Shown in pieces: positions 24,899 through 63,814 of a stretch of DNA of 64,000 nt. The stretch is from NCBI GenBank assembly GCA_029964075.1, contig CM057149.1, positions 10,240,465 through 10,304,464 of the forward strand, written 5' to 3'. Source of the stretch: Patiria pectinifera (Eukaryota; Echinodermata; Asteroidea; Valvatida; Asterinidae). The notes under the pieces were generated by a model, which did not search any database, was not told the DNA's origin, and saw nothing but the letters and a program-made list of their open reading frames with translations. Numbering within the stretch: the first letter of the stretch is position 1; each line of letters opens with the position of its first letter. The translations under genes and the position numbers were made by a program.

Positions 24899-25125
24899 AT
24901 GAATTTCCTTCGGCGACGTTTTTCAGACCCAAACTCGCTGGGCAATGTCCCCAATGGATATTTTCAGAATATCGGATCTGATGATACCAGAGAAAAGACT
25001 CTGGCAGCTGCATCTGTTCCTCCTAAGAGAGATCTTGGCTTCTTGAGTTCATTAACGACAGGCAAACAGCAGGAGAGAACCAAGTGTAAGACGTTACTGG
25101 TCATTGATGACCAACACACAGACTG
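24899..25125 (+). CDS. SYN: Synapsin, first coding exon (domain A to start of domain C)
   Basis: Synapsins are neuronal phosphoproteins that tether synaptic vesicles and regulate their release. The exon opens with MNFLRRRFSD, the family's domain A signature, with the conserved kinase site RRxS at Ser9 (PKA/CaMKI target in vertebrates). NVPNGYF follows at residues 17-23. The exon then runs through a short unconserved linker (about residues 25-60), much shorter than vertebrate domain B, into KTLLVIDDQHTDW (residues 63-75), the first strand of the ATP-grasp-like domain C. The ATG at 24899 has an ideal context (GCCACCATG); an in-frame upstream stretch has no other ATG. The donor TG|GTGAGT at 25126 leaves phase 2. 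The end point (HTDW) matches, to my knowledge, the first coding exon of vertebrate synapsins. The rest of the gene is not seen in this window. Confidence 0.93.
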
Positions 25126-26732
25126 GTGAGTTGTTTATTAGGGGCTATTGTTTCTTCTTTAGTTTGTTGATTGGTTATTTTCATATGGATTTAGAGTGAA
25201 ATTACTGTCCAGGCAAACGCTTTTTAGTTACTCCTTGAAAAAGTTTATTTTATTTGCCACAAGGGATTTTTTCTTTTAAAATTCCGATGTGGTAAAATCA
25301 GCATTTGTATTAGATCCGTTTAGCTTTTGGCCAGGCTGTAACCCTTTTACTGCAAGTCAAGTTGGATAAGATGATTCATGCACAATCCCACTAACACCTC
25401 TTAGTTAAATACTAAACATTATCAATAATTGAAAATCCACTTCCAGTGAGGCCTAAATGTTTTGTTTCATTGCGGCCAAAAGCCATGTACATGTGACAGA
25501 CAAGCACTATACCGATCAATCTTTTTGGTCTAACAAAATCTATTCTGTCTCCAATCTGTGATAGCACATGAATGCGATAAGATCTGAATGATTCACATCT
25601 ATTTGGTCTAGCACTCACTGTTAGCACTCACTGTTAGCACATGATTGCAATACTTGAATGATTCACATACGGTAGCTGTTTGGTGTAGCACCTTCTGTTA
25701 TTGGATTTCAATGGCTTGACCTATTTTCCTCCTCTTAACTGGAGTAATGATGCCTACGGTAGATCAAGAAGCTAATGCACCCTGTGCACTCGATATCAGC
25801 TTAATGCTCCAGTTGAGTTTGTAATACACGCACTACTGAATGGATGATAAATCAAACTTTCTGCCAAGAACTTCCATAATCTACAACGGACCTGAAGAAA
25901 ACTCAAGGGGTCCACACAGCCGTTCTGCTATGGGGCATTTTGTTAATGTATACGCTACTTTGAGGGGTCAACAAAGATTACAAAACAACAGTCTCAACAG
26001 CATTTTCCATTCAAGGTTGGGGAAATTCAAACTAGTGACTTTCGATGCAGTTAAAACAAAGTTTTTGCATGATGATGTACCGGTACATGTGTGTATGATA
26101 CATGTGCAACATTTTTTTAAACACATCAGTGTTGGCCGGGGGAACAGCATGTTTTCTTCCCATAAAAGCATGTACATTACAACGCCGCATCTACCGGTAG
26201 CAGCATCTTAATTTTTGTTCTTCATAACGTAAAATTTAAAACATAGTTTTGTTTCAGGAAATTTTTCTTTCTGTGAAATATGCCCTGGGATTGATCTAGA
26301 ATTTTTTATTCTTAAAAAACAATTAATTTTACTTGCACGAGTGTTCCAAAATGCCACTCATATCATAATCCTCTCGCGTAAGTCCCCTTCACTAAAAAGA
26401 TCACTACATGTATGGTACATTTACTTTTACAGTAAACATCATAGCAATGAATATGTAGCCCATGTTTTTTTATAAAATAGTTGTGAACTAGAGAGTGGGA
26501 GGGGTGGGGCATATGTAGGGCAGGAACGGGGGAGGTTAGTGAGGGTTTGCTGTAACACCATGTGGAAGAATCTCTTTTGAGAAGATGTGTGGTTCTGAAA
26601 GGAACCGGTTGGTTGCGAAACTCAACGTTATGATCAATATATGTCTTCAGGAGGAAAAAAGGGGGAGGTGTTGTTAGATGCATGGCAAACAAGTGCAGCT
26701 ACCAGTACATTTGCACAAAGTTTCCCTCTGAG

Positions 26733-27232
26733 NNNNNNNNNNNNNNNNNNNNNNNNNNNNNNNNNNNNNNNNNNNNNNNNNNNNNNNNNNNNNNNNNNNN
26801 NNNNNNNNNNNNNNNNNNNNNNNNNNNNNNNNNNNNNNNNNNNNNNNNNNNNNNNNNNNNNNNNNNNNNNNNNNNNNNNNNNNNNNNNNNNNNNNNNNNN
26901 NNNNNNNNNNNNNNNNNNNNNNNNNNNNNNNNNNNNNNNNNNNNNNNNNNNNNNNNNNNNNNNNNNNNNNNNNNNNNNNNNNNNNNNNNNNNNNNNNNNN
27001 NNNNNNNNNNNNNNNNNNNNNNNNNNNNNNNNNNNNNNNNNNNNNNNNNNNNNNNNNNNNNNNNNNNNNNNNNNNNNNNNNNNNNNNNNNNNNNNNNNNN
27101 NNNNNNNNNNNNNNNNNNNNNNNNNNNNNNNNNNNNNNNNNNNNNNNNNNNNNNNNNNNNNNNNNNNNNNNNNNNNNNNNNNNNNNNNNNNNNNNNNNNN
27201 NNNNNNNNNNNNNNNNNNNNNNNNNNNNNNNN
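26733..27232. other. Assembly gap of exactly 500 N
   Basis: Five hundred consecutive N bases. The round number suggests a placeholder of unknown true length. Frames reported across it are artefacts. It lies between synapsin exon 1 and the first TIMP gene, where a small synapsin exon could be missing. Confidence 0.98.
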
Positions 27233-27928
27233 TAGTCACTCAAATCCCAACCCTACAGGCATCTCCATCAAATCCTACCAACGTTATTATTTCCACATAC
27301 TTTTTCACACCTCACTGTCACTTTTACCAGGTACGTGCAAATAACGCTGAGCATGGAATGAATAGTCACAGGTTGGGGTAATATGGAGTGCTTCTTTCCC
27401 TTGTCCAACTCATTCAGGGATGGTGTTGGGTAAATATAGTTTGATCTTTAAAACAAACTTCACCGTTTCATCATAAAAAGACTGCAGCCACAGAGGGTCA
27501 TCCATGAAGCGTTTTAGCAAACAGTTGTCTGATAACCAAACTGCTACTGTGTACAGCTTCTTTTGAATCCAGAGTGTACAACCTGCTAATTATCCACTCA
27601 AGCAGGAGGAGATATAACATAGTGTTAAACTAAGACATGTTACTTAAGGAAATCTGAACCATGGTGATTGTTTTCTGGAAAGCAACTAGATGGACACATA
27701 TTGTTCTATAAGTACACTAAAACACTATATGCAGAGCATCTTTTTAAGAACAGAAAACTTGTGAAAAATAGGTGATCATTTATCTTGAATCGTTTTCAAT
27801 TTCAAATGCACACAATATTGCAAACAAAATAGAGAAGGAAATAACTGTTGGAAATCTTTAGAAAATTTTTAAAGTCTTTAAAAGCCTACTGAGTATCCAT
27901 AAAAACGTAGCCAAAGGAAAGTCTGCAT

Positions 27929-28582
27929 CAGAGTTGCAATGACTCGAGTCAATGACTCAACTCGAGTCCGACTCAAGTCACAATTTTTGGTGACTCGACT
28001 CGACTCTAGTCCCTGAGGGCAAGCGACTTGACTCGACTCGAGTCACTGTGAGCAAATGACTCGACTTGACTGAGTTCCTCATCAGAATGACTCGACTCGA
28101 CTCGAGGAAGGCAAATAAGACTTGAGTCCCAAAACTAAAAGTAGAACTTTGCGAAAAATATTTGCAATAACTTACGCCCGTGCCGGTTTTTGTTCACGTC
28201 ACGGTAGAATGTTCAGGAATAGGAATAATGTATACATACATGGTTTGATCATTGTCCCCATTAGTAGAATGGCAATCCGCTGGCACCCCCTTTTTATTTT
28301 CATTAAGAGTCAAATGTGGTGTCTCCACATGTAGTAGCCCGAATGTAACATTAAAAAAGCCCAAAAAAATGACTTTCTCTCTTGTGTTTATTTACTGTAC
28401 AGTGTTCAAATATTTGTGACTCGAGCTAAATACTTGACTCGACTCGACTCGACTACACACTGTGGCTCGACGTGACTCGACTCGACCTTCTTGACCTAAT
28501 GACTCAACTCTACTCGAGTCACTTCTTTAAAATGACTCGACTCGACTTGAGTTACAAAAATCAGTGACTCGTTACAACTCTG
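27929..28582. mobile_element. hAT-like non-autonomous element with GACTCGAGTC arrays, 654 bp
   Basis: The left end is CAGAGTTGCAATGACTC and the right end is GACTCGTTACAACTCTG; they are inverted repeats with few mismatches. The 8-bp word GTCTGCAT flanks both sides exactly (27921-27928 and 28583-28590), the duplication length expected of hAT transposases. Both subterminal regions (about 27940-28120 and 28410-28570) are packed with GACTCGACTCGAGTC-like words in both orientations, able to pair as a large foldback. The centre encodes nothing recognisable. Confidence 0.85.
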
Positions 28583-30516: not shown

Positions 30517-30530
30517 GGGGGGGGGGGGGG
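30517..30530 (+). repeat. Poly-G tract, 14 bases
   Basis: Fourteen uninterrupted G. Comparable homopolymers occur near 17040 (13 G), 44600 (G), 10612 and 36135 (C), and 63492 (19 C). They are typical polymorphic tracts and are prone to sequencing error. Confidence 0.9.
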
Positions 30531-32424: not shown

Positions 32425-32551
32425 ATGGATTTCTCATCATTAAGTTTGATTTTCCTCCTCTTCCTGGCATATCTTGAGACAACCCAGATGGTCTTAGGAT
32501 GTCAATGTGCTCACAGACATCCACAGCAACACTTCTGCCAGGCTGAATTTG
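32425..32551 (+). CDS. TIMP-A exon 1: signal peptide and Cys1-Cys13 segment
   Basis: Encodes MDFSSLSLIF through QAEF plus one base. The hydrophobic signal (LSLIFLLFLAYL) ends at Gly25, so processing would expose Cys26 as the new N-terminus, as TIMP inhibition requires. Residue 2 of the mature protein is Gln, where vertebrate TIMPs have Thr or Ser; this side chain enters the protease S1' pocket, so specificity may differ. Donor G|GTAAGT at 32552, phase 1. Confidence 0.92.
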
Positions 32552-35500
32552 GTAAGTTATTCCTGGACAATATTGTATGTCATTAGCCTAAATGATGTGT
32601 CAAGTTTTTAGAAATTATTTCTACAATACATGTCTATATAACACTTCACATCTGATTACAAAACTGGATATTGTGATACCAACTTTATCAGCAAACTTAA
32701 GTATCTCTCTTGAAATATGGTAGTCTTGGTCAAGACGTTCAGTTCGGCAGTAGTAACTGATGATCATACACAGCAGACACACACTTTGCACTCACACGTA
32801 CGTAAACTACGACCTCAAACGGCTAGGCTACAATAGGCAAATCAGGTGAGGCTGAATATTTTGCAGACAGTTTTTGTTATTTTGTTGCTGAATTTATATG
32901 GAGTTATATTTGCAGACTCCTCACTTATGTCCATGTAAAATATGAGCCTCCACGACCAAGTACTGAATAATAATCTCATAATCATTGGCACATGAGGTCA
33001 TTGCTGGAATCCAGTAAAACCCAATGGATATCCATGTTCCCAGGCGTTCATTCAGCCCACCCGATTTGCATATCTTAGCCCCGTGAGGTTTCTGTTTGCG
33101 CTTCACACAGTATGTGTGAGTGCATTTTTTTTCGCAGCCAACCTTTGATCATCAGTTTCTATCGTCAAATGCCTTGACCAAGGCTGGAATAGAAACATGG
33201 GTGTTTCCTACTTTCATGCTTTAAGAGTGGACTGAAAATGAGATAGATGCTAAGGTGTTTGTTTTGCCTGTTGGTTGCATGATCTATCAGCTCCCAGTTT
33301 TTTTTCTCCATATTTTTGCAAAACAATTCAGCATTTGATTTTGCTCAATTGCATGATTGCACCTGGCCAATCGTGCACAACAGAGTTTTTTAAAAATTTG
33401 TACGAAGTTTGTTTCATGCCTAGGAAGCAAATCGCCCTCAACAGTCCTTGCTATCATTTGATCATGCTCAAACTCTTGATGAAACAAACCTCTGCAGTTC
33501 TCTAGTCAAACAACAAAAGTGCAAAGTACTGAAGCTCAATAACACTGCACATTCCCTTAGGCAATGGGCAGTGCTTGGTAAATTCCAACCCTCAATCCAC
33601 CCAATCATCAATTCTCACACCTGACCATTATGAAGAGTGTTGACAAAATACTGCCACTTGTATTACAGCTATATCCCTCCAACTTGCAAGACAGTTAACC
33701 TCCTGGCAACTTGTTGATTAGTTGACCATTGGTTGATGGTTGTCCAGACATGCAAGGGTATCTGGTTTATGGGAAGGAACCCCAAACCAAAGTACATGAA
33801 CTAGTAGTCTAGTCCTACATGTACGTGAGCTTGGACCCTTGATGCAGGAGTCCCTGTATGTATTTAGTGACCCCATTCCACTTGGAGTTACACCCGAACA
33901 GTACATTAACAACTTATTGTCAGGTTAGACAATAGGAGAGTTACTGAACAGAGTCAGTTTAAACTCCAATTCTGACAGTACAACTAAAATATTTTTAAAG
34001 ACACAAGTGTTTCTTGGTGTCAGTAATCAGCTTGTATTTCAGGACAACTTGAAAACAAAGTTTTTAAATTCCCTAATGGTAAGAACTACTCAGAGGCAAA
34101 CCACGATACATTGGCCACTTGCACAGCCAGTATTATGAACAAGAGATTGAAACTACTCTAAGATTTTAATTTATGAAATAAGTTAAAATTGCAATAAACA
34201 ACAGAATACTCCTAAATTGAAGCACTTTGTTTTGAGCAAAGCCAGAAACCTTTCTGGATAAATCAACAATCACCAAGGAAGAGACCTCAGAGGATTGGTC
34301 CCTAGGCACGGGTCAAAAACAAACGGACTCTCTATGGATACTAGTTGAGAAAAGAATATATTACTGTAGTTGAGTAAACAAAAGGCATACATCTCTCTCC
34401 AGCTACTTAAAGTAAACACAGAAGGGGAAAAGTGCATTGTATTGAAGCACAGCTACGAAACTGAAGTGGAATTCCTCTTGCCTAGGGATCAACAGAAACT
34501 GTTGCATGTTTGTCTGGTAAATCCATCATAGATTTCATATATTTGCAGCATTTGAAAGTTGTATAAGTTTTTGTTTGTTCCTCCAAATTTACCTGACACC
34601 CTGAAATGTACTCCCTCCCGGCACACCCAAGGAAAATCAGCTTAAATTGTCAATCCCCAGTTGGATTATGAAATTGACAACTTCCCAAGGCAGTTGTTGA
34701 AAACAGCAGCTATAAAAACACTCTACTCCCCTTGAATTTCTTAAAAGTCAAGTCAACTTCAAATTATGTGATCCAAAAATATAGAAACATGATTTGCAAA
34801 ATCAAAATTATTGCTAAGACAATAAGGTTGTCACTTTTCTAGTTTAGTGTTGAAATTCTTACTTTTTTGCATGTTCGCAAAAAGACGGAAAGAACTCATT
34901 CATTGATTTTTTGGTCACATTTTATAACAAAATTCCCTTGAACCAAGTACAAGAAGCTGACAATTTCTGACCCAATATGACCAGAGTGTGTTTCCAAGGT
35001 CAGACAACTTTCACTTTGTGCTCACAATCACCACAAAAAAATCAAACATTTGTTGAGGTTGTAACTCTCAATATCGCCTCATTACTGGCATTAGGCAAGA
35101 GATCTATTTTGGTTTCTCTGATTTAACTAACAAGCTATCACATACAACAGCCTGATTATTGTTGGCTTAAGATGATCTATAAATAGCTACTGAGATGTAA
35201 CGATGTCTTTTTTTCAAGCGTAATGAGGCATAATTCTTTCTCCTTCAAAATTGTAAAGCTGCCCCTATTCATAGACAGTTCTTTTTTTTCAAACCATAGC
35301 TGTAGCTCTATGTTCAGACACAGTCTGCCATAAAGCCAAGGAATATTCACTGTACAGCAGAAAATATGTTCATTGTTATTTCCAGACACAAAATGGGGCA
35401 GGCCACACACTTTAACAAAATCAACATGCCATTCAACCACAATGTAACCGCAATGCAAGGATAATTTGGTAGTAGAGGGTTTATTTTGGGATGTGTCCCT

Positions 35501-36997
35501 CAAAATCTGTCCTGTGCACATTCATTTGATTGACTGTGTACAAAGCCTTAGAAAATAACGAAGGGGTTGATGTGAAGAAACGCAAACCGCAAACTCCACA
35601 CACAAGAGCAAACAGTACGAAATGATCCTGAAATAGAATCAGACTTTAGGATTTGGCTGTGGTGTTAAAACCAAGCAACCACACAGTGATCCCTCAAATG
35701 GCTCAAACTGTCCTTGATTTATAAAACAGCCAACATTCCAAGCATGGATGGCCTTTCATTTCAAGTAAAGGTCACAAACACCAAAGTGTTGATCCCCTAA
35801 GCAATACTCTTATTATTGCCAACAATCATTCACCAGTCACAATCAACAAATAATTACTGGATTTACCTAACAATGCAGCTGGAATCCAAGGCCTGATGAT
35901 AAACACTAAACAAGGTCTCCAACCAACAATAAGCACACAGAGACCTTAGGCCCATGTCACTGTTCCCTCAACAATTGATTTCTCAATGCAGTTTCTATTG
36001 GCAATTGTTCAACACTTTAAGACAGCGAAGTACAACCAGAAGGTTTTTTTAGACAAATATTTAATGATAAAATCTTTTTAAAAAGTTGGAAAGTCAACCA
36101 TTTAAACCCCAATTCTGGTTTTTCCCAAAGTTACCCCCCCCCCCTTTTGGAGGGTTAACAATATTCCTCAGATGAATTAAGTGGCTCCTGATGATAATAA
36201 TTTGATGAGTTTGTGAGACTAGCACATTTTTTGGCAATATACCGGTACATACAACTCTGTTGTATACCATGGCATGTTTTTGAAACTGAATACCCTACAC
36301 GACACAATCATCTACAGTCAAATGTCATTCCGAGAAAACATTGATAGCTATTACTGTTTGTCAATGGATAAACGTACAACACTGAATACTAGGCATACAT
36401 ATTACCACAAATACAAACAAAATCCTGTTTAACAAACTAAACAAACTTTGCAGAGGTATAATTTCAAGACCTGTTGTGCGGGGTACAGGGCAGTAATTGT
36501 CTCATTACCAGGAATACAGATTAGCTCAATTTACTGCCAGCTTCTCAAACAAATTCAGTTCCATTGTTATACTGCAGCTCTGAGAGTGGTTGTGAATAGG
36601 AATCAAAAAAGAGCATTCTCCTTTGTTCAATGGTATGGCTGATCCTGCATGAAACCTAAGGAGTTAACTTTAGCTGGCATTGAGTCCAGCATTCATCAGG
36701 CTTGAGTGACTGTAACTGACACACCGTCTTCTTCAAGGAACCATCCTTCCTGATATAATCCCACAGTCGACCAGGAACCAGGAAGCCTCATTAGCTCATA
36801 GGAACACATCTAGGGTAGCTGATACATGGGGGCACACAACCACAAAAGGGGGAGCATACCCCCCCCCCTCCCCCCAGTTCTTTCAAAGTATCCTTCAGTA
36901 GGTTAGAAGATAAGGTAATCATCAATTCAACTATTCAGGATTATCAAGTCATTCAAATAATTTGATAACTGATTCCATATTCTTCTTTTCAAAACAG

Positions 36998-37339
36998 TTA
37001 TTCGTGCCAAGGTCATGAGTAAAACCTTTGAGCCGATCATGCCATCTCAATCCCTAGCCACTACCCCTCAACCTACAACCAAACCCCCATGGAGATTCCC
37101 TGCAGTCAGCAAACTGAGGATGGCCAAACCTCCCAAGACACTTCGGCCCTTGTCTGAAGGAGAGATGGAATCTTGGAATACCTGGGCAATGAGACTGAGG
37201 TACATGGTGCAGGTGGAGAAGGTCTACAAAGGAGAGGAGACGATACTAGCAAGAAGCAAGATTGAGATTATTAGTCCTGCAGATAGTGGCATGTGCGGTG
37301 TGACGATGCTGGAGGAAGGACAGAAATACTTGCTGACAG
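36998..37339 (+). CDS. TIMP-A exon 2: beta strands A-B with enlarged AB loop
   Basis: The acceptor TTTTCAAAACAG precedes the exon. It encodes VIRAKVMSK (strand A), about 56 residues rich in Pro, Thr and Lys in place of the short AB loop, then RYMVQVEKVYKGEE (strand B) and GMCGV...KYLLTG. Vertebrate TIMP genes have an intron after the YKG segment; here that intron is absent. Donor ACAG|GTGAGG at 37340, phase 1. Confidence 0.9.
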
Positions 37340-38196
37340 GTGAGGACAATCATTACAATAGCCCTTTGCACTAAGCGGCCATCTTTGAGGGTTTTGTTAA
37401 AGTAGGTTGAAAAGTAAAAATGAATACACAAGAGGCCTGCTCCAAAATAAAGTACCTCATCAATGATGCCTGCAAAGCAAAGGACCTTTATGAATAATGG
37501 TCCAAACCCAGGTTATTTATTAAATAATTACTACAGACTTAACATGGATGTTTCCAAATGGAAGTATTCTTCATTTTAGGTGTGGGGCTGGGTTGAGGCA
37601 CAAAAGGTTGAGACTTTTCAAGTTGTGTTCATGTAGAAGGCATCCTCCACACACATCATAACTCGCCATATAAGTTTGATGGTGCAGAAACCCATGGGAA
37701 TGAATGCAGTTAAAGTGTGTCTGGTTTCCAAAAGACCTGTTTCCCTTCAAACTTAGAACAGGATATGTGATTGGGCGGATGATAGCAGACTTTTTTTTGC
37801 TGTCAGAGGTCAACTGTGAAATAGGTGGAATTAACGCCTTGAAAGTGTCCTGTAAAAAGTGAAAGAATGTTATCTTTGGAGAGATACAAGTACATGTACT
37901 CAAAGATTGAACATACTTAACTACTGTATGATTTCCATCTTTCCTAACTGATATAACCAAAGCACACTGACATCTAAAACTTCTTTGAACTACTTACAGG
38001 ATATGAAAACACAGACAATCATGCTTGAAATGTGATTTTTTTTTTTTACCATCTATATGGAAGTTACGCATTGTGCAATTTTTGGCACAGTTAGCAGGAC
38101 ATTCCAAGGGGCATTCTAAATTTCCTTCCCCTGATAATATGAACGTCCTCACGGCAATTATATTCAGACAACTTTTTTTTCTTGACTTCTTTACAG

Positions 38197-38321
38197 GAAG
38201 CTTCTCTGAGAAAGGGCCGACAATTCACCTCTGTGACTGGGTGGTTGAGTCACATCTTGTGACCAAAACACAGAGACAAGGACTCAAGTATGTCTACAAG
38301 AAATACTGCGATGAGTGCATT
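38197..38321 (+). CDS. TIMP-A exon 3: Cys99 to Cys124/127 segment
   Basis: Exon of 125 bases, identical in length to the equivalent TIMP-B exon. It encodes GSFSEKGPTIHLCDW, the QRQGLKYVY stretch (compare QRRGF-type in human) and KYCDECI. The acceptor TTGACTTCTTTACAG and donor ATT|GTAAGT fit consensus; the exon starts in phase 1 and ends in phase 0, matching vertebrate TIMP exon 4. Confidence 0.92.
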
Positions 38322-39029
38322 GTAAGTCAACTTCTTTACGAAATATTCCTAACTGTGTATTGCGCTTTAGCTTATAGTTGAAGGCCAAAGCTTGGTCGAA
38401 GGCTAAAATGATTTGAAGAAACTGATGCCATTGAGGAGGCTACAACCTCATGTATTGAAACAAAACACAATGGCTGTAGGCAGATAAATAAACAGTCACT
38501 CACAGCAAATAGCTCATCAACATCTTATAATTAGGTACCTTCATGATATGACCTCATAAACAATTTATGAATATAGCTGCAACAACATTGGTAAAGACAC
38601 CTGCTAGACTGTAGTTTGTCACCTGCTAGGCCAATCAATTACTAGGCTCTTGTAATAGATTTATCAATAAACCACTAACTCTATTAACTGATGTTTACTA
38701 ACAGAGTGAAGGGTTTGCAGGATAATCAATACTGACTGGCCTCGCAAACAGTTTGCAATAACAAACAAAATAAGGAGCTACATCTTGTTGATGTCTCTGA
38801 ACAAAATACTCACTTTAGAAGGCTGAGGATCCACCCATCTAGTGAACAGAATTACAAATTTCTTTTCAGTCTGTCAAATATGGTATCAAAAAGTTATGCG
38901 TCATGTTTCAAGTCTGTTTTACATTTATATGCAGCAAGTATTGGGTAATGAAAACCAGCTGAAGCAAAACCATGGATAGTTCAGACATATCTTGAATTGA
39001 TTAAGACATCCTTTTCCCTCTCATTTCAG

Positions 39030-39263
39030 ATCAAGCCTGGTGTCATATACTGGCCTCCAGAAGCAAAGGAAAAAGATGTCTGCGCTTACAATCCCTACTT
39101 GTTCCATGAGAATGACTGTGCTGCTTTGTATTCTGCTTGTGTACGCAGGCCAAGTGGTATTTGTGAATGGCAAGTTACAAATAAAATGAAAAGATGTCAG
39201 AAGGGGGGTGGCATGAAATTGAGATCAGGGGGAAGACATGCAAAGAGACATAGTGTCTCATGA
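39030..39263 (+). CDS. TIMP-A exon 4: C-terminal subdomain and stop
   Basis: The acceptor CCCTCTCATTTCAG precedes IKPGVIYWPPEAK. Five cysteines follow in DVCAYNP, NDCAALYSAC, GICEW and KMKRC; GICEW corresponds to the conserved GLCTW of human TIMP1. The tail (KGGGMKLRSGGRHAKRHSVS) is strongly basic, which could favour binding to sulphated glycans in the matrix; that is inference. The stop TGA ends at 39263. Confidence 0.9.
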   Translation: MKPGVIYWPPEAKEKDVCAYNPYLFHENDCAALYSACVRRPSGICEWQVTNKMKRCQKGGGMKLRSGGRHAKRHSVS

Positions 39264-40218
39264 GCTACACGTACATTTATGAAGAAAAAAACCCAATCAG
39301 TATGTATGTGACAATCACACATTATTAGTGTGCTTCTAAATACTTGTACTGTAATTGTCTGAGATCATAAACCTGCTCATGAGACCTAGCAAATGTGGAT
39401 TTTTTGACAACCCTTTTGGGAGCAGAACGGAATGAAATTTCTGTATGAGACAAACCTGTCGAGTTATCTGTGAGAACAGTGATAATTAAATGCACCTGTC
39501 ATTTGTAAGTGTACATCATGTCCTTCATGGATGTGACATAGGGATGCGTCGAGTCAATTTGTGGGGTTTGTCATTGTTCCTCAGTAGATGCATCACAATA
39601 TGTGAAAGGCGGGTCAAATAACGTCAAATGTATGCATTGGTGCGTCACTGACAAAGTGTAGATTCAACAAAAGGATGTTAAACAATGACACACCATTCCA
39701 AGGGGTCATGGGTGCGTCATACAATTGATAGGTGCATAATAAAGGTCTCGATAAGACATATATGAATGGTCGAACTGAATGTTGACAATGAACAGAAATG
39801 GCTCAAATTAAATTTGCTAAATGTTCAAATTAATCACACATGCTTGTTATTGAACTGTAAATAGAATGCATAGGAACAAAATGGATCAGGCAAAACTATT
39901 TTTCATTGACCATTTTTGTTGTTCGGCTTCAATGTTTTGATTCCAACAGAAAAAAAAAATCCTGTATGTTTGACCAAATTTAAACATTTACAAAGAAGAT
40001 TATTTAATGTTTATTTGACACTTTTGTGAAAATCAACCCTGTAAATTATTGGATGCTAAGTTATATATTGCTCTGTAAATACACCCTTTGTATAAATTGC
40101 TGACAAATGTTTGTGGACATACTATTATATTTGTAACTTATATCCAATATGCATCATACTGTTCTGATGATTGCTGTTTCGCTGTATGGCCGATACCTGA
40201 AATCATTCTTACAAACAG

Positions 40219-45334: not shown

Positions 45335-47045
45335 TCATCATCATCCTTCGGCTGGGGAGCAGGCGACTATAAGCTTCTTCCATTTACTGCAATCTTGGGC
45401 AAGTGTTGCGATTTGGTCTGGTTGCAGCATGCCATCACTATCTCCAAGCAGGCGTTGAACATACGTTAGAAATGATGTGCGTTGTCTTCCTGGTCTCTTT
45501 TTTTCCCATAGGGTGGTGTATAGAGGGCATATAATTTTGTGGGTTGATCGTCGGACATGCGGAGTATGTGCCCAAGGAAATTAAGCTGCCCAGACACACT
45601 CCACAAGTGGGTTTAAGTTGGTCATAGTGTAGATGGTGGCATTGGGAACATTTGATGCTCAGCATAATGCGCTAGCTAGAGGTGGCAAAAGCCTTTGTTT
45701 GTTTGTTTTCTGTGTCTTTGGAGATGACCCATGCCTCACATCCATAGATGAGAACTGTTACACATGTTGTGTTGAACAACCTCATTTTGGTGGTAATTGG
45801 TAAAGAGGGGCTTCTCCACAGCTGTTCCAGCTTCCAAAAAGTCATCCAGGCCAGTGCCTTGCATCTTTTGAGGTCGGTTTCGACAACTATGATGAACACA
45901 AAAGGAGCAAGTACATCCCCTTTCAGAACTCCAGTGGATACATCAAAAGGCTCAGAGATACTTCCAGCCACCATGACAGCACTTCGATAGTTAACATACA
46001 TGGCTTGAATGGTGCTGACCACTGCCATAGTGGTGTAATATATAAAACATGACTCTGTTGACGGAATCAAAGGCTTTCCTGAAGTCAATAAAAGTAACAG
46101 CAAGAGGAAGTTGGTGGTTTTAAAACCTTCCATTACCCTATACGAAGGACATGAATCTGCTGAGCACAAATGTGTCCCGGATGGAAGCCAGCTTGGTTGC
46201 TCCTCAGTATTGGATCAACGGAGGGGCAAATTCTGTTGAGCAGAATTTTGATGAAAACTTTCGCAGCTACTAATGTGAGAGTGATCCCACGGTAGTTAGA
46301 TCCCCTTTCTTGGGCACGGGTACGATGACATTTGTGGCACACTGATGTGGTGATTATGTTGTATACACCTCAGAAACCATGGATTACATCTATAGACCCA
46401 CTGCCTTGTTGGTTCCGCAATAGCTTTAATGGCTTTGGCTGTCTCATACCGTGAAAGGACAGTGTGATGGGCAAGTCCTTTACATCAGGTGGAGGCAGCT
46501 CAGTTAGGTGGGCCATTTTCATTGTTGAGTAAGGAGCTGAAATATTTGCCCCACTCTGAAAGCAGTTCTGTGTCACTAGCAAGGACTGTTCCATCTCTTT
46601 TTGACTTTGACACTGTTTCTCTTGTCCTTCCCCGAGAGGTCATGGATAATTTTCCAGGTTGTGGTGTAGTCTCCCAATTCATCAGCTAGTTTAAGATCAT
46701 CAATCTTTTTGTTGAGTGAGGCAGTATCATCCTTATGATTTACTGAGACAGGTATTGAGTTTTCTCCATTCCTCCCCGGATTTTTGTGATTTTGATATTG
46801 AGTACCTCTTTTTGGCCTCATCCCTGTCATCTTTAAGTTTCATGGCCTTATCTGACACCAAGCTTGGCATTCCACGTATTTCCCAACCACATTCTCAACC
46901 ACCTCCTTTACAATTACAGTGGTTTCGAAGCTGTCATACTGGTCAGAAATTGTTGAAGTGATGTCATTCTGGAGTGCTTCGAATCTATTGGTAAGCTCAA
47001 GTTGAAACTTCTCCTTGGGTATTAACAAATACTTAAAAAAATACA
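45335..47045 (-). pseudogene. Decayed non-LTR retrotransposon (LINE) reverse transcriptase
   Basis: Minus-strand frames in 5' to 3' order give a linker with KEKFQLELTNRFEALQND, WKIIHDLSGKDKR and EWGKYFSSLLNNE. The RT start is NYRGITLTLVAAKVF...SNQAGFHPG (46342-46133), followed by FDVSTGVLKGDVLAPFVFII. The C-terminal LIYGCEAWVISKD comes next, then a GHILRMSDD/RPGRQRTSFLTYV/DCSKWKKL-type end (45660-45340). The frames are shifted against one another and the catalytic YxDD segment is missing: the sequence passes from VFIIVVETD straight into the thumb region. The element is dead. The endonuclease domain is absent (5' truncation near 47045). The clade was not determined. Confidence 0.85.
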
Positions 47046-49163: not shown

Positions 49164-49802
49164 CAGTGTTGTAGTCGAGTCCTCCTCATCCGAGTCCGAG
49201 TCCGAGTCCGAGTCCGAGTCCGAGTCCTTGTCAATTTTTGATGTCCGAGTCCGAGTCCGAGTCCGAGTCCGAGTCCGAGTCCTTGAAAAAAGGACTTGAG
49301 TCCGAGTCCGAGTCCTTTATCAATCAAAGTCGTAGTTCACAACTATATATATTAATTCAAAAAAATGTCACTATCAAATTTTGGGTGGTTTTTTTAAACA
49401 AAACCCCCAAAAGTTGTATGTATATATACATGCGCAAATGGCACGTTATTGATCATATTATTGATCATAAAGCAACCAAAAAGCTGCGCTAAATGGGTAA
49501 TGGGAGCCCAATTGTATGGCGTTGATTCCATGCGGCTGAGATAGCTCCTTGTCATTGTGTCAACCATGTTAGTAATATTGAACAAAAAGTCCAACACATC
49601 GGCAAGCAACTGAATAACTGATGAATCGATTTATTTGGTGGGCAATTGGCTAGGTTAGGTTGGAATGAATCAATTGATCATTGATCAATCGGCAAGTTAT
49701 TTTTGCTGCGGCAGAGACTGCGCGTCGGTTCCACAGCAAAACCAAATCAAGGTGAAAGACATAAAATAATTGAAATAAAACACCTAAAATCCTACAACAC
49801 TG
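49164..49802. mobile_element. hAT-like non-autonomous element with CCGAGT arrays, 639 bp
   Basis: Left end CAGTGTTGTAG, right end CTACAACACTG: a perfect 11-bp inverted repeat. The word ATCATTTC flanks it exactly on both sides (49156-49163 and 49803-49810), an 8-bp target duplication as for hAT. Near the left end is an array of the hexamer CCGAGT (about 49191-49320), which in one frame spells a Ser-Glu repeat. It resembles the element at 27929, whose ends also carry GAGTC arrays. It lies between two TIMP-like relic exons. Confidence 0.88.
49191..49320 (+). repeat. Hexanucleotide (CCGAGT)n microsatellite
   Basis: Two blocks of uninterrupted CCGAGT units separated by a CCTTGTCAATTTTTGATG spacer, followed by a third short block. 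It is internal to the hAT-like element. The open frame MMSESESESES at 49238 is a product of this repeat, not a gene. Confidence 0.9.
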
Positions 49803-51411: not shown

Positions 51412-51553
51412 ATGAAAATGCAAGGATCTCCAGGAGTAGTTCTGCTGTTTATGTTCCTTGCAAGGGTTTGCCTTGGTCACATTGAGGAACCAACAACATG
51501 GCAAAGTTGCACACCACGACACCCACAACAACATTTCTGCCACTCAGACTTTG
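51412..51553 (+). CDS. TIMP-B exon 1: signal peptide, Cys1 lost
   Basis: ATG at 51412, with a second in-frame ATG at 51418 that could also be used. The hydrophobic core VVLLFMFLA leads to a likely cut after Gly22, leaving HIEEPTTWQ ahead of the Cys3 equivalent. The PRHPQQHFC stretch is otherwise nearly the same as in TIMP-A. Donor TTTG|GTAAGT, phase 1. Confidence 0.88.
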
Positions 51554-51947
51554 GTAAGTGTTTAAAACTTAATAATAGCGTATTCTTTGTTTCTTATTCT
51601 ATGGTACTGTGCTTTTTTTCCAAGGAATTTAACATAAATTGAACTGTTACTTGCATCTAATGCTATTTTGTAGTGCTACAGATTTTGTTGAAATTTTGTA
51701 GAAATTTCAGATTGATTCCAACAAATATTGAATTCCAAAACTTTATGTTTTCAAAGGTGAAATTAATTTGAGGGCTTAAAAAAATCTGAGTTTTCTACAC
51801 GTACATTGTGAATCCAGCAGTAGTATACTGCCAAACTGAATCAAACATGACAAAACGTATCCAAATATTTACATGTACATAGCCAGAGATATCGTGAATT
51901 GAATGTAAACTCACAGAATTGTTTTGTTTTTACACATGTATTTCCAG

Positions 51948-52418
51948 TTATCCTGGGTAAGGTTTTGAGCAAAGAAAATATAAATGTACCAGAGAAAGAT
52001 CCCACAGTAGAAAAGGAAGCGGCAGCAACAGCAGCAGCGGCATCTGTTGTCATAGCAGCAACAGCTATTGCAGCATCAACTACCATAGCAACAAGCACCA
52101 TGGAAATGAATGCAGCTCCAGCTAGAGATCTACTCACAACAAATGGAACACCAAAACAAGAAGCATCCTTGGTTTTAACCCCTGACGAAAATATATCACC
52201 TAGGCAACAGATGCCAGCAGTTGCATCATCGGATGAAGACATGACAGAAGAACAAATATCACTTGGCCACATCATCAAATACAGAGTGAAAATCAACAAG
52301 ATTTACAAAGGATCACTGTCGATGGCTGCTGGTAATACTGTTATCATTCATTCTGAGTCAGAAAAACCATCCTGTCAAGGGAAATGTCTCCAACTACATG
52401 AGGAATATATACTCAGTG
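51948..52418 (+). CDS. TIMP-B exon 2: Ala-rich AB-loop insertion
   Basis: After the acceptor GTATTTCCAG the exon gives VILGKVLSK, then a stretch in which residues about 70-100 are mostly Ala, Thr, Ile and Val (possible helix), then an acidic segment (SSDEDMTEEQ). Next come KYRVKINKIYKG, PSCQGKC and EEYILSG. The first Cys of SCQGKC is eleven residues before the Tyr, exactly as MCGV is in TIMP-A. Donor AGTG|GTACGT, phase 1. Confidence 0.85.
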
Positions 52419-53542
52419 GTACGTAGCAATGCAAAAAAAATTAAACACTAAGAAATTATAAATAACATTCACTATTACAATGTTATCAATCAATGTACAT
52501 TGCAAGTGAGGCTGTTGAAAAGATGCCCATAATACTAATATGAGAACAGTGTAGTAGGTTTCACTGCATGATTCAATTTTTGTTATTACGTTCAAATGTT
52601 CTTTTCGAAATTCAATCCGACTTAACTGATTTGCTGTTCACTTTATCTCCTTCATGAATTAGTCGGATGTGGAGTGTAACTAAAAGTTAATATAAAAGCT
52701 GTTCAACCCAGTCAATTAGCACTCAGCTTCAGCTTATTATAGCTTGCTAAGTTTATTCAACTCAGTCCACTGATCTACAAAAGTGATTTCTACAATATCT
52801 GTATCCAGGGATATGTATTTACAATCAACATGTTTTTAGGTTACGTAGAACTCCCTGGGGAAATGTTAATTGTTTTCAGGGAGGGTGGAAGATTGGAATT
52901 TTTTGAGGCATAATCAAGAGATTACAGATTGATAAAAGGTCACACATTTTATCAATTGAAGGAAATGATTGAAAACACAAACAATGTAAAATCTAGGTGA
53001 AATATCTACCCTTGACATTTGCAACGTTTGGTGGTCTTGCGGATTGACACCACAAACACAAAACTCTTGATATGAAAAGATGAAGCAAGATAAGTCTCTG
53101 AACAAGAAGAAAGCAAACAAATGTAAACTGGTTTGCAATTCTTAAAACGTGTACAGTTGGATTATCTGCAAGAGCATAGATGTAACTAGAGCCCCTTTTT
53201 CAATTCTTCCCTCTGAGGGTCTCAGACAATTCTCCCGTGACATCAGTTTCTATTTGCAGACTTCGTGCACCTGTAACAGTTTTCTAAATTCATTAGATTG
53301 ATGGTAAAAAAACTTCCTTAAGTACACATTTTTCTAACTGAGCTCTCATACCTTGACATTTAACATTTAAAGGTGATAATATTGACTTATTTCATCTTGG
53401 TAGCAAGAAAATGAGGCAGTCAGACGGTAGATGTTTCATGGATTCATATCTTAAAAATGTCTTTGTTACAATATTGAACTGGATAAATTCAACAGGCTTG
53501 GGTTGCAGTAATGCAAGACTAATGTTGATTATTTTGTTACAG

Positions 53543-53667
53543 GGACTATTTCTGGAGGTGACTTTTTTCATCATCAATGTGACTGGAGAATCTCTTGTCA
53601 TCAGATGACAGCTACTTTACAGCAGCAACTCAGACGTGTGTATTCAAGACACTGCAACACATGCAAT
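53543..53667 (+). CDS. TIMP-B exon 3: Cys99 to Cys124/127 segment
   Basis: Exon of 125 bases, the same length as in TIMP-A, giving GTISGGDFFHHQCDW, an extra Cys in RISCHQ, then LQQQLRRVYSRHCNTCN. The extra Cys here and the extra Cys in SCQGKC of exon 2 could pair with each other; that is inference. The acceptor TTTTGTTACAG and donor AAT|GTAAGG fit consensus. Confidence 0.88.
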
Positions 53668-54920
53668 GTAAGGATCATTTCATTGTCTCATTATTTAATG
53701 CAGAATATGCTAATGACATCTTTCCCTCTCCAAAAACATGTGCTAAATGTCTACCCAGACCGTTATGTGCATCCCTTTAGACAACTTTATGAATCCTTTT
53801 TCCAATTCTATGTTCTGTTTTGAGATTTAAACCAGACATATTGCTTTCTAGGGTTTTCAACTCTATTTCCATTAAATTGCATCTCCTACTTAATCAAAAA
53901 CTGAGACTGAACAACATCAAAACTGAGACCGAACAGCAAGGATCTTCTCCAATACAGGCTTTGAGAATTAAAACACATTCAACATTTAAAGTCTGAAGAA
54001 CTCATGAAAACCAATCTGAACTTACATGTAACATCACGTCTTTGTCATTGCAAATATTTCAAAGTGCATTTTCAAAGAGCAAGGACTAGACTAATCTTCC
54101 TGATAAAACAATCAAAACGTGTCTGACTGTTGGAATCATGGACCCACTCATGGAGAATGAGTGTGACTTATCGTAGAACATTAATGTGATATCAATCTGT
54201 TTCCATTTTGTTGGCCAAGTACTCTACCATACCGATTTACATCTGCCTACGTGTTCACTCCGTTGTTGGACTTTTGAAAAAAATAGAAAGGATTGAATAT
54301 CCAAAAAATATTGTCAATGCAGTGTAAAAGCATACATGATAATCTGATTAAATTACACTTTGTGGTTGAACTCTACACTGAAGCAAGTTGAATACTAGTC
54401 CTGCAGCCCTGGGATTACTTTAAGGCAAGTGATGAGGGGCTGGACAAGGGAAGGAAACAGATTTGCCTCCTTGCATATTCGTTTCATGGTACCTCAACCT
54501 TGCCAAATCAAAGTTTTACAGAACTGCCCTCATAAATTCTCACTCAGAGGAAAATGCTAGAAGTAAAAGGGAAATTCATGACTTATCAGAAAGGAAACGG
54601 TAAAAAAGCCAGGAACATCAATTACCTCTTCAGTGACCTATATACGGCCTTTGGGTAAAGCTTCAATTTTAACATGTAGTGAACATTTCAGTTTTAACAT
54701 CATTTTTCAATTTTTTTTTTTTTTTAATCACATCCTTGCACTGAATCTATTTTTGTGACTCTTTTTTTTTTACCGGTATATCTGTCTCTATGTGATTCAA
54801 ATGGGAGTGGTACTCCTTCGTTTTTTTTCTTCTGCTGTACTGAGGATAGTGATACACTTCAAATTGTTACTCTTCATTATCAAAAATTTTTAACTTCACA
54901 ATCCTTTATTCCTGCAACAG

Positions 54921-56216
54921 ATCAAGACGGCCCAACAAGCACGCGAGTCACTGAACCTCCAGCCATCCCCAGCAGATTCCACACAATGTGTCTACAACCC
55001 CAGCTTCTACACTGACAGAGGATTGCAGGATTGTGAGGGGCTGTACTCTGCATGTCAGAAAACTTCGCAAGGCACATGCTCCTGGTCTACACATCAAAAG
55101 ATGAGAGAATGTGATAGCATGAGAAAGAAATCCTTGAACTATCCATCACCAAATGTTAATCTTCCTTGTACACAAACAGTCATCTCAACTCCAAGTTCTA
55201 AGAGAACCGGCAAAGATGATAAAGCATCTTCAAACAAACAAACATCCCCTGACCTCAGTCCCTCTCAAATCATGCCAAAGAAGGAACAGAAGAGAAAACG
55301 AACTACTGACACACTTTCTGTGCAACCTGCTGACAAGAAACTGAATATCTCAGATGAAGAAATGAAACAAGAACCTACTCCAATCTCTACTGATGCATTG
55401 CCGGGTGTCAACCAAGATCCTCCTGCTGTAGATCTATCCTCCACTTCTGATCAAGATATCACCAAACAAGGAACTGCTCCAATCTTCACTGACCAGATAA
55501 AACAAAAAGATTTGCCACATGAACACCAAGATCCCTACATGTCTGACCAAGCTTCAAGAGATACCAACCCTTTCTTCAGTTCTCATCATGTTCACATGCC
55601 GCATCATGCCATGGGTTTACCTCCACCACCAGTAGCAGGCCAGGAAGCATCAGATATCTTAGACAAGATTACACAACAACATCTCCAGAAGCAGAGAGAT
55701 GAGGATACACATATGGCAACATCAACCTTGTCACCTCGTCAAAATGAACAACAGCCCAACCCTGGCGACTTTAACACATCAAATGCTATGCCAGTTGATT
55801 TCAAGACAAATGTATCATTACAGTTTGAAGAAATTACAGAATCTTCTAAGAATTCTTCTTTACCATTCAGTAACTACACAAATAAACAAATTACAATCCA
55901 ACCAACAAGTAAACCAAATAAATCAAAGGTGACATTATTTTCAACTACAATGCATCCTCAATTTCAGCCAAGTGAAAGTTCAGACAGTAAAGATTATGCT
56001 TCAGACTTTTTTAAGCCTCAGTTTCCTTTATCAGGGGATGATCCAATGGCAGTACATGAGGATGAGTTTAGTAGAAACCCTTTTGATTCCAAGAATCCTT
56101 CCTCTATCTCTGACATGGCAGATGCATTCCCTTATCCACCTGTTGACAGTCAGGAAGCCAAAGGAATCTTGGAAAAGATTACAAACCATTACAGGGAGCA
56201 GAGGACAAAATCATAG
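54921..56216 (+). CDS. TIMP-B exon 4: C-subdomain plus long disordered tail
   Basis: The acceptor TATTCCTGCAACAG precedes IKTAQQARESLN. The C-terminal subdomain ends near Cys310 (KMREC). The remaining 367 residues are rich in Ser, Thr, Pro, Gln, Lys and Asp, with a basic patch KKEQKRKR (about 366-373) and one further Cys (329). A motif of about 27 residues appears twice: PPPPVAGQEASDILDKITQQ (from about 479) and YPPVDSQEAKGILEKITNHY (from 651 to the C-terminus). Each is preceded by an NPF-containing segment. No known domain is recognised in the tail. TAG ends at 56216. Confidence 0.9.
   Translation: MKTAQQARESLNLQPSPADSTQCVYNPSFYTDRGLQDCEGLYSACQKTSQGTCSWSTHQKMRECDSMRKKSLNYPSPNVNLPCTQTVISTPSSKRTGKDDKASSNKQTSPDLSPSQIMPKKEQKRKRTTDTLSVQPADKKLNISDEEMKQEPTPISTDALPGVNQDPPAVDLSSTSDQDITKQGTAPIFTDQIKQKDLPHEHQDPYMSDQASRDTNPFFSSHHVHMPHHAMGLPPPPVAGQEASDILDKITQQHLQKQRDEDTHMATSTLSPRQNEQQPNPGDFNTSNAMPVDFKTNVSLQFEEITESSKNSSLPFSNYTNKQITIQPTSKPNKSKVTLFSTTMHPQFQPSESSDSKDYASDFFKPQFPLSGDDPMAVHEDEFSRNPFDSKNPSSISDMADAFPYPPVDSQEAKGILEKITNHYREQRTKS
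55617..55700 (+). repeat. Coding repeat copy 1 in TIMP-B tail
   Basis: Encodes LPPPPVAGQEASDILDKITQ and the following QHLQKQRDE. Copy 2 lies at 56133-56213. The shared core is QEA-x-x-IL-[DE]-KIT followed by a basic/Gln-rich helix end. Confidence 0.8.
56133..56213 (+). repeat. Coding repeat copy 2 at the TIMP-B C-terminus
   Basis: Encodes YPPVDSQEAKGILEKITNHY then REQRTKS, the last residues of the protein. Similarity to copy 1 is at the protein level, with clear nucleotide drift, so the duplication is old or under selection. Confidence 0.8.
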
Positions 56217-60155: not shown

Positions 60156-60949
60156 ATATTTAAATGTATCTGGGATTGATGAAAAAAATGTTAACATCTT
60201 TGGCTGAATTAATGGGGTGACTATAAGTGCAAGTAAATTAGCATGGTCCACTCCCTGTATCTGATGTATAACTTTCCCGTGATTGTACAATGTACATCCC
60301 ACAATTTTTGCTTAGCGCGTCAACATCTACTATTCTAGTCAACACTTTTTGGGGCCTAGTCTTCAGGTGTTCATGATTGAATTCAGTGCACTTGACCTTA
60401 GGTCACATAAACACTGTGATCTACCACATGAGCACAGAATTAGTGCAATCTCTATGGCGACCAATCCCACAGGGAGTAACACCAGTCGATGTAACTGTCA
60501 TGAGAATGGCAATCTACCTGTAGCTTCCTGAGTCTAGTATTATATCTGATTAAGCAACAAGTTGGACAGGACACCATACCTTGGAATGGTACATGTATGT
60601 ACATCCTGCAGTGGACAGTCAGTGCTCAATGCACACCAAATCATCCTCATTTAAATTCAAGTCAAAATTCCACCATTCTTCAACAAAAAAAAATCTGTGA
60701 AATTAAGATCTAGATCATCAGACACTTAAAGCTGACAAGTGTCAAACCAACCTGTCCTGTGAAATGTACTGAACTCATGTAAACTGCTTCTTTCCAAACT
60801 ATAGCTGTTTCACGACTGAATAAAAAGTGAAAAATTCAGTGTTTCCATTTTCTGCTTATCAATAAAACACAAAAAAAAAAAAAGGGAAAAGTTACAAAAG
60901 TGACACCAGATATCGCCAGAGAAGACAACAACCTGGAGCCAATGTCAAG

Positions 60950-61085
60950 ATGTGTAGCATTGCTGCTGGAATCAAGATACTGGCAGTAGCTGCGACTATT
61001 GTATCCTTCCAAACTGTGGAGAGTACATCGAGTTGTAACTGCACAAGAATTCATCCACAGCAACACTTCTGTACAGCAAACTATG
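60950..61085 (+). CDS. TIMP-C exon 1: signal peptide and Cys1-Cys13 segment
   Basis: MCSIAAGIKILAVAATIVSF is a hydrophobic leader; cleavage before Cys29 (TSS|CNC) would give a Cys N-terminus. The ATG at 60950 is the only in-frame start close by; another ATG nine bases upstream is out of frame. Donor TATG|GTAAGG, phase 1, at the same site as in TIMP-A and B. Confidence 0.9.
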
Positions 61086-62436
61086 GTAAGGACTAATTGA
61101 TTAAGTTTTCATTGTAAAATCTGTAGGATCATGTACCATATCGGTAACTAGTGATTTAGCTTTTCATGTACAGGACGGTCTGCATTATGTGTCTATTCAC
61201 CATCCATCCTTTTCAATAAACATGGTGAGTCAAAAAAAAGTGGAATCCAACCCCAAAATTTATATTTCATATTTAAAAAAATAGGCAGCACCAAAAATAA
61301 TGATGACTGGAAAGCCAATTTCATAAGCTATTACTGAAATTGCTCAATGTGTTCAAAGAATGTCACCATTTAAACCCAATGACCCTAGAACATCTTTCCT
61401 TCAAAAATGCGGTTTCAAGAATGGCCGTCACAATTGTCTTCAAACATCACTGGTGATAAAACCCATGTCTAAAAGTTAAAAATATTCAACAAAGTCCTTT
61501 TGAAGGCCTGTCTTTTTCTGACTCACCCTGTATTTGGGATTTTATGAGAAATTGTAAATCTTGCCATTTTGGACCTATAGAATCATTTAAATTTTGAGTT
61601 GAAGATATAGGGCAGTAGTGTGATTTAGGTTACTCAGGGTCCTTTGTTACTAGATAAGTATGGCAGTGATGTTAATTCAAACAACAAATCTGAAACAGCA
61701 TTGACAACAATTACAACCAGCAACTCTATTTCATCAAAGCTGATTGGACCAAACTAGGTAATGAGGACAATAAATCTGTTGCCAAGATTTCAGAAATCTT
61801 CAGAACTGTTCACATTTTCTTTTACTTTTTCAAAAGACCAATCATTTTGTTTGATTAAAAAAAAAAAATTTCTCTTTATATAATCATCCAAGCGCTAGTA
61901 CGATTGATAGGGCTAATCCTTTCCACTGCAAAACAAGAATTTCAATTATCAACATTACAGACTCAATAAATAAACATGTCACCTTCACTTAAAGTTTAGG
62001 GAACCATGGAGTATACACAGCATGATTTATACAGCTTTGTTTGGAAGGAATTCAGATTGTTTATTAATTCTACATGATCTTTCACCATTGCCATAGTAAC
62101 ACCCCACGGTAACAGCACTTCCTTGTTACAGTCTACTCAGGAACGGAAAGTCTGAATTTTATTTAAATGTAACTTGAATGCTTTTGCACGATAACTTAAT
62201 TTCAAAATAATGATAAAATAAATATGTCCTCTAACTAATTTGTCATGTAACTGATAAAATCACTGAACCAACTTAGTTTATGCATATGGAAAGGTTGGTA
62301 TTAAACAACAAATCTCCCAAAATGGAAGACAGTTGCTTTAAGTTACAAATTGTTTGGTAAAATTGAGATCTTCGTTTAACCTTATAAACATTTTACTTAT
62401 ACATAAACAAATATCTTTTGATATCATTTTTCTCAG

Positions 62437-62634
62437 TGATTCGCGGTCGAGTGGTTTTGATACAATGGCAGCTCATTCCAGACTTGGACACAGAGTCAAC
62501 TACAGTGACAGAAACCCTGACAAACCCTACATCATACATGACAGCAAATCCCCTCACACAGGGGCCTGAAGCAACAGGCAAAGAGGTTGAAAAGTCAACA
62601 GCACTCCCATCATCCCAGGACCAGGACCAAAATG
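62437..62634 (+). CDS. TIMP-C exon 2: strand A and Thr-rich insertion, first half
   Basis: The acceptor ATCATTTTTCTCAG precedes VIRGRVVLIQWQLI. The rest (TESTTVTETLTNPTSYMTAN and onwards) is Thr, Ser, Pro and Gln rich, a candidate O-glycosylated linker. Donor AATG|GTATGA is weaker than the others but keeps phase 1. The exon is an exact multiple of three (198 bases), so skipping it would not shift the frame. Confidence 0.82.
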
Positions 62635-63491
62635 GTATGATAATATTTTTAAATTACATAGTATTATTCCTGGAGGAAACAAAACATATTTGCATACAAG
62701 GATTACTGCGGATAGCTTTGAGTATCCAAAGAGGGTTTATTCAGAATACTATCCAATTATTTAAAGGTAATATATACAACATTTCCTATTGCTGTTATTT
62801 TCAGAAATGGATGGATTTGGGGGTTTGTATTTTACAGCAAATGTTGTTACACTGACCTTTTCAAAGTTTTGTGTTCGTATGCTGGAAAAACCAAGAAAAA
62901 AATGTTGCTTTTGTAGTTGGTTTCCCTGACCCTACTTCAGATGAAACGGAGCAATTTATATGCAGGGGAATTGTCAGGTCAGGGAATCATCAGCTTGCTT
63001 GCACCCATTCACGGATGTGTAACCAATTTTAAACAAAATGTGGACAAAATAAATTTGGTAAATTTTGTTTTAATTTTGAAAAAAATTAACTGAATTTGAA
63101 AATGACAGCACACCAGGAGCTACGATTTCACAGGATTTCACAGTCAAGTAAGGCATTTCGTACTAATTTGGTAGTTTGTTTGTTGATGTTTGCAAGTGTT
63201 GCATATTACCTTTACTAGGATCCAAAAGGGTTTCAAAAAAGCAACCTTTCCATTTCATCCTTCAGGGGGGTCTGTGATCAAGGAGATTTTCAAAACTGTT
63301 TAATTTATTCTATTGTTTTCTCATTCCTTCCCTTCTTATGGATGTTTTTCCAATATTTATAGAAACACCCAATGAAAAATTTTACATACCGGTACCAGAA
63401 CTGTCCTTTACTATAAAAAAAACAAGTTATTTAGTATTGAAGTCTTATTGACTATCAATCAAGGTTAATTCTTAATCTTTAGACAAGAGCA

Positions 63492-63518
63492 CCCCCCCCC
63501 CCCCCCCCCCAAAAAAAA
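63492..63518 (+). repeat. Poly-C (19) followed by poly-A (8)
   Basis: An uninterrupted C run followed by eight A, inside the intron 35 bases before the TIMP-C exon 3 acceptor. Length variation here could alter the effective branch-point/pyrimidine region; that is inference. Confidence 0.9.
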
Positions 63519-63553
63519 GCTGATCTAATCCCAATCTAATATTTAACCTGCAG

Positions 63554-63814
63554 AATTCATTGACGCGATGCCAGCCCATAGACACAACAATCAAAGAGCC
63601 AACAGAAGGGACAAACGACTGCTAAAGAATCGCATCATCAACCAAGAACCATGGAACTATGAGATCATCTATATCATCACGATCCAGACTGTGTATAAGA
63701 ATGTGGGCGGAGATTCACTGATTGAGGGGGAGGAGCTGGAACTTAAGAGTCCATATCCAGGCATGGGATTCTGTGGTGTGGAACTCAGAGCAGGCAGATC
63801 TTACCTCCTAGCAG
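63554..63814 (+). CDS. TIMP-C exon 3: basic loop segment, strand B, Cys70
   Basis: The acceptor TTAACCTGCAG precedes EFIDAMPAHRHNNQRANRRD and KRLLKNR, a strongly basic stretch. It continues with WNYEIIYIITIQTVYKN, a Gly/Glu-rich turn, GFCGVELRAGRSYLLAG. The CGV and YLLAG words match TIMP-A (CGV, YLLTG) and human FLIAG. Donor GCAG|GTAGGC, phase 1. A run of 19 C (63492-63510) lies just upstream of the acceptor. Confidence 0.9.

Follow-up and report, generated by a model that had tools for sequence, protein, structure and literature searches.

The window analysed here, a 64,000-nucleotide stretch of the genome of the sea star Patiria pectinifera (CM057149.1 of assembly GCA_029964075.1, positions 10,240,465 to 10,304,464 of the forward strand), contains the first coding exon of a synapsin gene and, further along the scaffold, at least three TIMP genes. 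The synapsin exon and all three TIMP genes lie on opposite sides of an assembly gap of exactly 500 N (26733–27232). The window has no other N run, and the gap divides it into a left and a right contig. The relative order and direction of the two sides therefore rest on scaffolding, not on contiguous sequence. A round-number gap of this kind is typical of the filler that scaffolders place where the distance between joined contigs is unknown. The first-pass annotation, which described synapsin followed by TIMPs on the same strand, had not noticed the gap, and its description holds for the scaffold but not for contiguous sequence.

The synapsin exon (24899–25125, plus strand) extends from domain A to the start of domain C. 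The open reading frame (ORF) around it matches Pfam Synapsin_N (PF10581) at E 2.4e-16, above the cut-off, so that domain A is present, and it matches rat synapsin I at E 4.9e-06, with NFLRRRFSDPN aligned to rat NYLRRRLSDSN. The opening residues, MNFLRRRFSDPN, belong to domain A; the exon ends in ...KTLLVIDDQHTD at the start of domain C, where the W codon is split by a phase 2 donor (CTG|GTGAGT). In human synapsin, exon 1 likewise ends at HTDW. Of domain C, only the first 13 residues (KTLLVIDDQHTDW) are found in the window, and their match to PF02078 (E 0.011) is below the cut-off. Judged by the Pfam match, the likeness to rat synapsin I and the phase 2 donor, this segment is a genuine synapsin first coding exon on the plus strand, as the first-pass annotation had it.

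We identified three TIMP genes, all on the plus strand. TIMP-A (32425–39263) and TIMP-B (51412–56216) are complete, with four exons each; TIMP-C starts at 60950 and is cut after its third exon by the end of the window. The exons of TIMP-A are located at 32425–32551 (signal-like start, CxC and HPQ), 36998–37339 (VIRAK, a 62-residue loop and the NTR strands; Pfam TIMP E 1.9e-07 for this exon), 38197–38321, and 39030–39263, which includes the stop. TIMP-B is composed of 51412–51553 (signal-like start and HPQ, the first Cys of CxC missing), 51948–52418 (with a 105-residue loop; as a single exon it matches Pfam TIMP at E 0.0022, below the cut-off), 53543–53667, and 54921–56216, which encodes the C-terminal domain, a 367-residue Ser/Pro-rich tail and the stop. 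The three exons of TIMP-C seen so far are 60950–61085 (signal-like start, CxC and HPQ), 62437–62634 (first part of the loop) and 63554–63814 (remaining loop and NTR strands; Pfam NTR E 0.001, below the cut-off). Once spliced, TIMP-A (E 9.7e-31), TIMP-B (2.1e-23) and the TIMP-C fragment (2.3e-09) all match Pfam TIMP (PF00965) above the cut-off, which bears out the earlier count of at least three TIMP genes on this strand. All eight modelled introns have GT and AG ends, the exon boundaries having been set by eye to suit frame and consensus. Four-exon TIMPs are frequent in echinoderms (25 of 41 sequences; PMC10755359). A profile of the three window TIMPs and two human TIMPs recovers its own 11 exon ORFs, by construction; the same profile found no fourth TIMP copy among the ORFs of the window, the next ORF having an E-value of 0.6. 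As predicted proteins, the three copies are divergent, with A and B identical at 61 of 168 aligned core residues.

TIMP-A has a hydrophobic signal-like start, CQC, HPQ and VIRAK, and its cysteines number exactly 12, as is conserved in TIMPs; it is probably a metalloproteinase inhibitor of the ordinary secreted type. TIMP-C, incomplete in the window, has CNC after a hydrophobic start, as well as HPQ, and is probably similar to TIMP-A in function. The signal-like starts and the cleavage of the signals were judged by eye. TIMP-B possesses HPQ and a VILGK stretch but has QSC in place of CxC, so that Cys1 is missing; its preprotein contains 15 cysteines, one of them in the signal-like start and one in the tail. 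Given that the N-terminal CxC of TIMP contacts the protease (PMC8467561), the absence of Cys1 suggests loss of the usual inhibitory contact, and TIMP-B appears to be a TIMP-like protein that is unlikely to inhibit in the usual manner. Between the VIRAK-like stretch and the NTR strand that follows, A, B and C have a loop of 62, 105 and 99 residues, respectively, as opposed to 21 in human TIMP-2, and in TIMP-C this loop is split by an intron. All eight N-glycosylation sequons of TIMP-B are located outside the NTR core, two in the loop and six in the tail. Two motifs in the tail, PPPPVAGQEASDILDKIT and YPPVDSQEAKGILEKIT, look alike by eye; a self-comparison with blastp did not pick them up. Lack of the first Cys is shared with echinoderm TIMP-like proteins described as having no N-terminal CxC (Dolmatov et al. 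2021; PMC8467561), and a long tail with a Synapta TIMP reported to have a C-terminal chain of more than 100 residues (PMC4807446). The likeness to these proteins is by description only, and TIMP-B is set apart by its retained HPQ, 367-residue tail and 105-residue loop.

Three poly(A) signals were found 3' of TIMP-A (ATTAAA at 39485, AATAAA at 39738 and ATTAAA at 39807), while neither AATAAA nor ATTAAA is present within 1.5 kb 3' of TIMP-B. On the right contig AATAAA occurs 41 times on the plus strand and 25 times on the minus strand (41 and 39 on the left contig); the plus-strand excess comes at least partly from an excess of A.

Linkage of TIMP genes to synapsin has been described in many animals. 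According to Candiani et al. 2010 (PMC2825198), nesting of TIMPs in synapsin spans sea anemone to human and is among the oldest host-guest gene pairs described, the nested TIMPs occupy a conserved place in the synapsin protein, and they are reverse-oriented in every species examined there except C. elegans, which itself has no nested TIMP. The human nested TIMP is located in synapsin intron 5, which PMC1867822 states for all four TIMPs, whereas PMC2825198 describes TIMP2 as independent of synapsin. Candiani et al. place ten TIMPs in one synapsin intron of Strongylocentrotus purpuratus and two in that of Ciona intestinalis, and there is ample documentation that TIMPs have multiplied in echinoderms (PMC4807446, PMC8467561, PMC10755359). 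The first-pass proposal that the synapsin-TIMP linkage is ancient and that its TIMP side has expanded in tandem is thus supported; the expansion itself is not new, as it has already been published for sea urchin and Ciona. The locus resembles that of S. purpuratus, where multiplied TIMPs are likewise tied to a single synapsin gene, but there the TIMPs are described as reverse (PMC2825198), whereas here at least three appear to share the strand of synapsin, from which the 500-N gap parts them, and no later synapsin exon is seen. Ciona shares the presence of more than one TIMP and differs in their reverse orientation and in having two copies (PMC2825198). The vertebrate pairs SYN1-TIMP1, SYN2-TIMP4 and SYN3-TIMP3 also combine a TIMP with synapsin, and the exon found here reaches the HTDW point of domain C; in the vertebrate pairs, however, there is one TIMP per synapsin, reverse-oriented and in intron 5 (PMC2825198, PMC1867822). 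No case of a sense-oriented TIMP in synapsin was found in the open-access literature that was searched.

Because nested TIMPs keep their position relative to the synapsin protein in the published cases, exon 1 and the array should be separated by several domain C exons. A synapsin I/II/III profile, run on both strands of the whole window, recognised no exon 2 or later. This includes the part before 32425, where, according to the first-pass annotation, an exon 2 would place the TIMP genes outside synapsin; the power of the search is limited for an exon of 19 residues. An ungapped scan for synapsin domain C on both strands likewise gave nothing except a stretch of about 20 residues at 5113–5169, upstream of exon 1. 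We simulated the power of the profile search with pieces of 60% identity (200 trials each) and a threshold of 10.5 bits, the score of the best false profile match. Pieces of 45 residues exceeded it in 99.5% of trials, those of 30 residues in 96.5% and those of 19 residues in 44%, figures that are optimistic because the pieces were derived from a member of the profile. Most of synapsin exons 2–5 are probably absent from the window sequence and lie in the gap or beyond 64000.

The stretch at 5113–5169 (plus strand, in ORF 5026–5244) is itself the best false profile match (10.5 bits, E 0.038). It encodes 19 residues resembling synapsin domain C (CRIQAVHGHHSTDHIQEIM as compared with CAVEALHGKDGRDHIIEVV), and its ungapped score of 51.0 exceeds that of the reversed window (41.0) and those of all 30 random sequences (null maximum 38.3 ± 3.4, highest 49.0). 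We considered it as a decayed synapsin exon and rejected it because of its short length (about 20 residues) and its position 20 kb before exon 1; Pfam gave no match to it, and no plausible splice pair was evident by eye. It may be a decayed synapsin fragment or a chance resemblance.

Base composition changes at the gap. The excess (G+T-A-C) was computed after masking of exons, tandem arrays and homopolymers, in 63 one-kb windows, one of the 64 having been dropped as mostly masked exon. It is +0.039 to the left of the gap and -0.030 to the right, and the strongest single change point falls at 27000, within the gap; a change equally strong anywhere was seen in 7 of 2000 block permutations. On the sense strand of human and mouse introns, T exceeds A and G exceeds C (PMC10030826), and the definite synapsin intron to the left of the gap (1.6 kb) agrees in sign, at +0.044, 1.75 standard errors from zero. 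The opposite sign of the right contig is as expected if that contig is flipped, so that the composition switch weakly favours a wrong direction. The two contigs are close in GC content (0.380 and 0.377), and the tetramer correlation between them (r 0.967) is on a par with that between halves within each contig (0.966 and 0.971). A blastn comparison of the left with the right contig at E 1e-3 gave no match, so there is no overlap or duplication across the gap at that threshold.

We consider it likely that this is a nested, expanded synapsin-TIMP locus of the known kind. Its apparent co-orientation is most likely due to a wrongly directed TIMP contig; the right contig is probably mis-oriented, or else synapsin exons are missing at the gap. 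The guest TIMP gene would have multiplied into a head-to-tail array, as described in sea urchin, within what linkage and the published cases suggest is a synapsin intron. The three TIMPs have start and splice sites of their own and would be independent transcription units; their predicted products would be secreted metalloproteinase inhibitors (A and C) and, for B, a TIMP-like protein that lacks the first, inhibitory cysteine. With the TIMP contig placed backwards in the scaffold, the usual antisense nesting would probably still hold, and synapsin exons 2–5 would lie beyond 64000 on the minus strand, which fits the failure to find them between exon 1 and TIMP-A. The join at 26733–27232 may have been made by Hi-C, to judge from the gap length alone; in one assembly, gaps of 500 N were inserted between Hi-C-ordered contigs (PMC10421919). 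Scaffolding with Hi-C data does put some contigs in the wrong direction, the local orientation error of 3D-DNA being 4.3% for human and 11.7% for worm (PMC7672694).

Several points weigh against this reading. The origin of the gap is read from its length only, and the published rates of orientation error are low and come from short-read contigs (PMC7672694). A very short synapsin exon 2 may have escaped a search that recovered 19-residue pieces in 44% of trials. As for composition, the change point is broad, with positions from 24 to 31 kb nearly as good, the 24 kb upstream of synapsin are likewise G+T rich (+0.039), and the introns of the plus-strand TIMPs deviate from the expected sign, five of eight being negative (pooled -0.036). 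The location of the array inside synapsin is itself suggested by linkage and published cases.

An array that truly runs in the sense direction within synapsin, whether through inversion or through a move to intron 1, would explain why both sides lie on the plus strand of the scaffold as given, and the GC and tetramer agreement of the contigs fits one genome. However, such a reading depends on the 500-N join, runs contrary to the published antisense rule (PMC2825198) and has to account for exons 2–5, which were not found before TIMP-A and would need to be hidden in the gap, unless the array is in intron 1. The skew of the right contig, opposite to that of the definite synapsin intron, argues weakly in the same direction. 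We therefore regard true co-orientation as rather unlikely, and the first-pass claim of an array running parallel to synapsin is not supported, given the join, the antisense published cases and the missing intervening exons; a misjoin or an inverted array, which the first-pass annotation itself named as counting against the claim, may be present at this join. It is improbable, too, that the TIMP contig lies outside synapsin altogether, with order and direction wrong at the gap or with the array beside the gene. The right contig within the window contains no recognised synapsin exon and, as noted, no blastn match to the left one, but it would be an unlikely coincidence for a scaffolding error to bring together the very genes whose nesting is known from other animals. 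Sense fusion transcripts, in which synapsin exon 1 is spliced onto TIMP exons to yield chimeric proteins, had been raised as a question by the first-pass annotation; nothing but apparent co-orientation speaks for them, and we consider them very improbable. Synapsin exon 1 ends in phase 2, while the internal TIMP exons require phases 1, 1 and 0 (A and B) or 1 and 1 (C so far seen), so that all eight junctions from exon 1 to a TIMP exon are out of frame. In seven of the eight, the fusion stops after 75–83 residues, 0 to 8 codons past the junction codon; for TIMP-C exon 2, it stops after 119 residues. Chimeric proteins formed by this route are thus unlikely even if the genes are co-oriented. TIMP-to-TIMP splicing, from phase 1 to phase 1, would keep the frame.

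Co-orientation is thus unproven, and an error of contig direction is the more likely explanation. If it were true, a single intron of a neuronal host gene would carry at least three sense genes whose splice sites are strong, and the synapsin pre-mRNA would have to skip at least 11 TIMP exons and ignore internal poly(A) signals; the locus would then depart from the reported rule that TIMPs nested in synapsin are antisense. A switch of direction, once confirmed, would be a test of whether the pair depends on antisense orientation to stay together. As matters stand, the locus is chiefly an example of how such a switch can be mimicked by a scaffold join, and it adds divergent TIMPs, with a 367-residue tail, long loops and a lost Cys1, that are relevant to TIMP diversity.

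The rest of the window yielded little else. On the right contig, 13 of the 15 non-TIMP ORFs of at least 90 amino acids were searched in Pfam and none reached the cut-off, spliced and shorter genes being outside this search; the search bears on the first-pass statement that no other gene lies between synapsin and the TIMPs. A minus-strand ORF at 45672–46214 matches DUF6451 at E 9.7e-06, just below the cut-off, and resembles a LINE-type reverse transcriptase in its C-terminal part. On the left contig, 19 of the 24 non-synapsin, N-free ORFs of at least 90 amino acids and the 73-residue ORF 5026–5244 were searched, and none of these 20 reached the Pfam cut-off, shorter ORFs and spliced genes again being outside the search; weak matches below the cut-off had E-values of 0.035 and 0.026. 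No RNA family reached the gathering score in the window. Tandem repeats include a 60-bp unit in two copies with 96% matches (21430–21546), two minisatellites of the GACTCGACT type (27992–28106 and 28418–28482) and a (TCCGAG)n hexamer array at 49189–49282.

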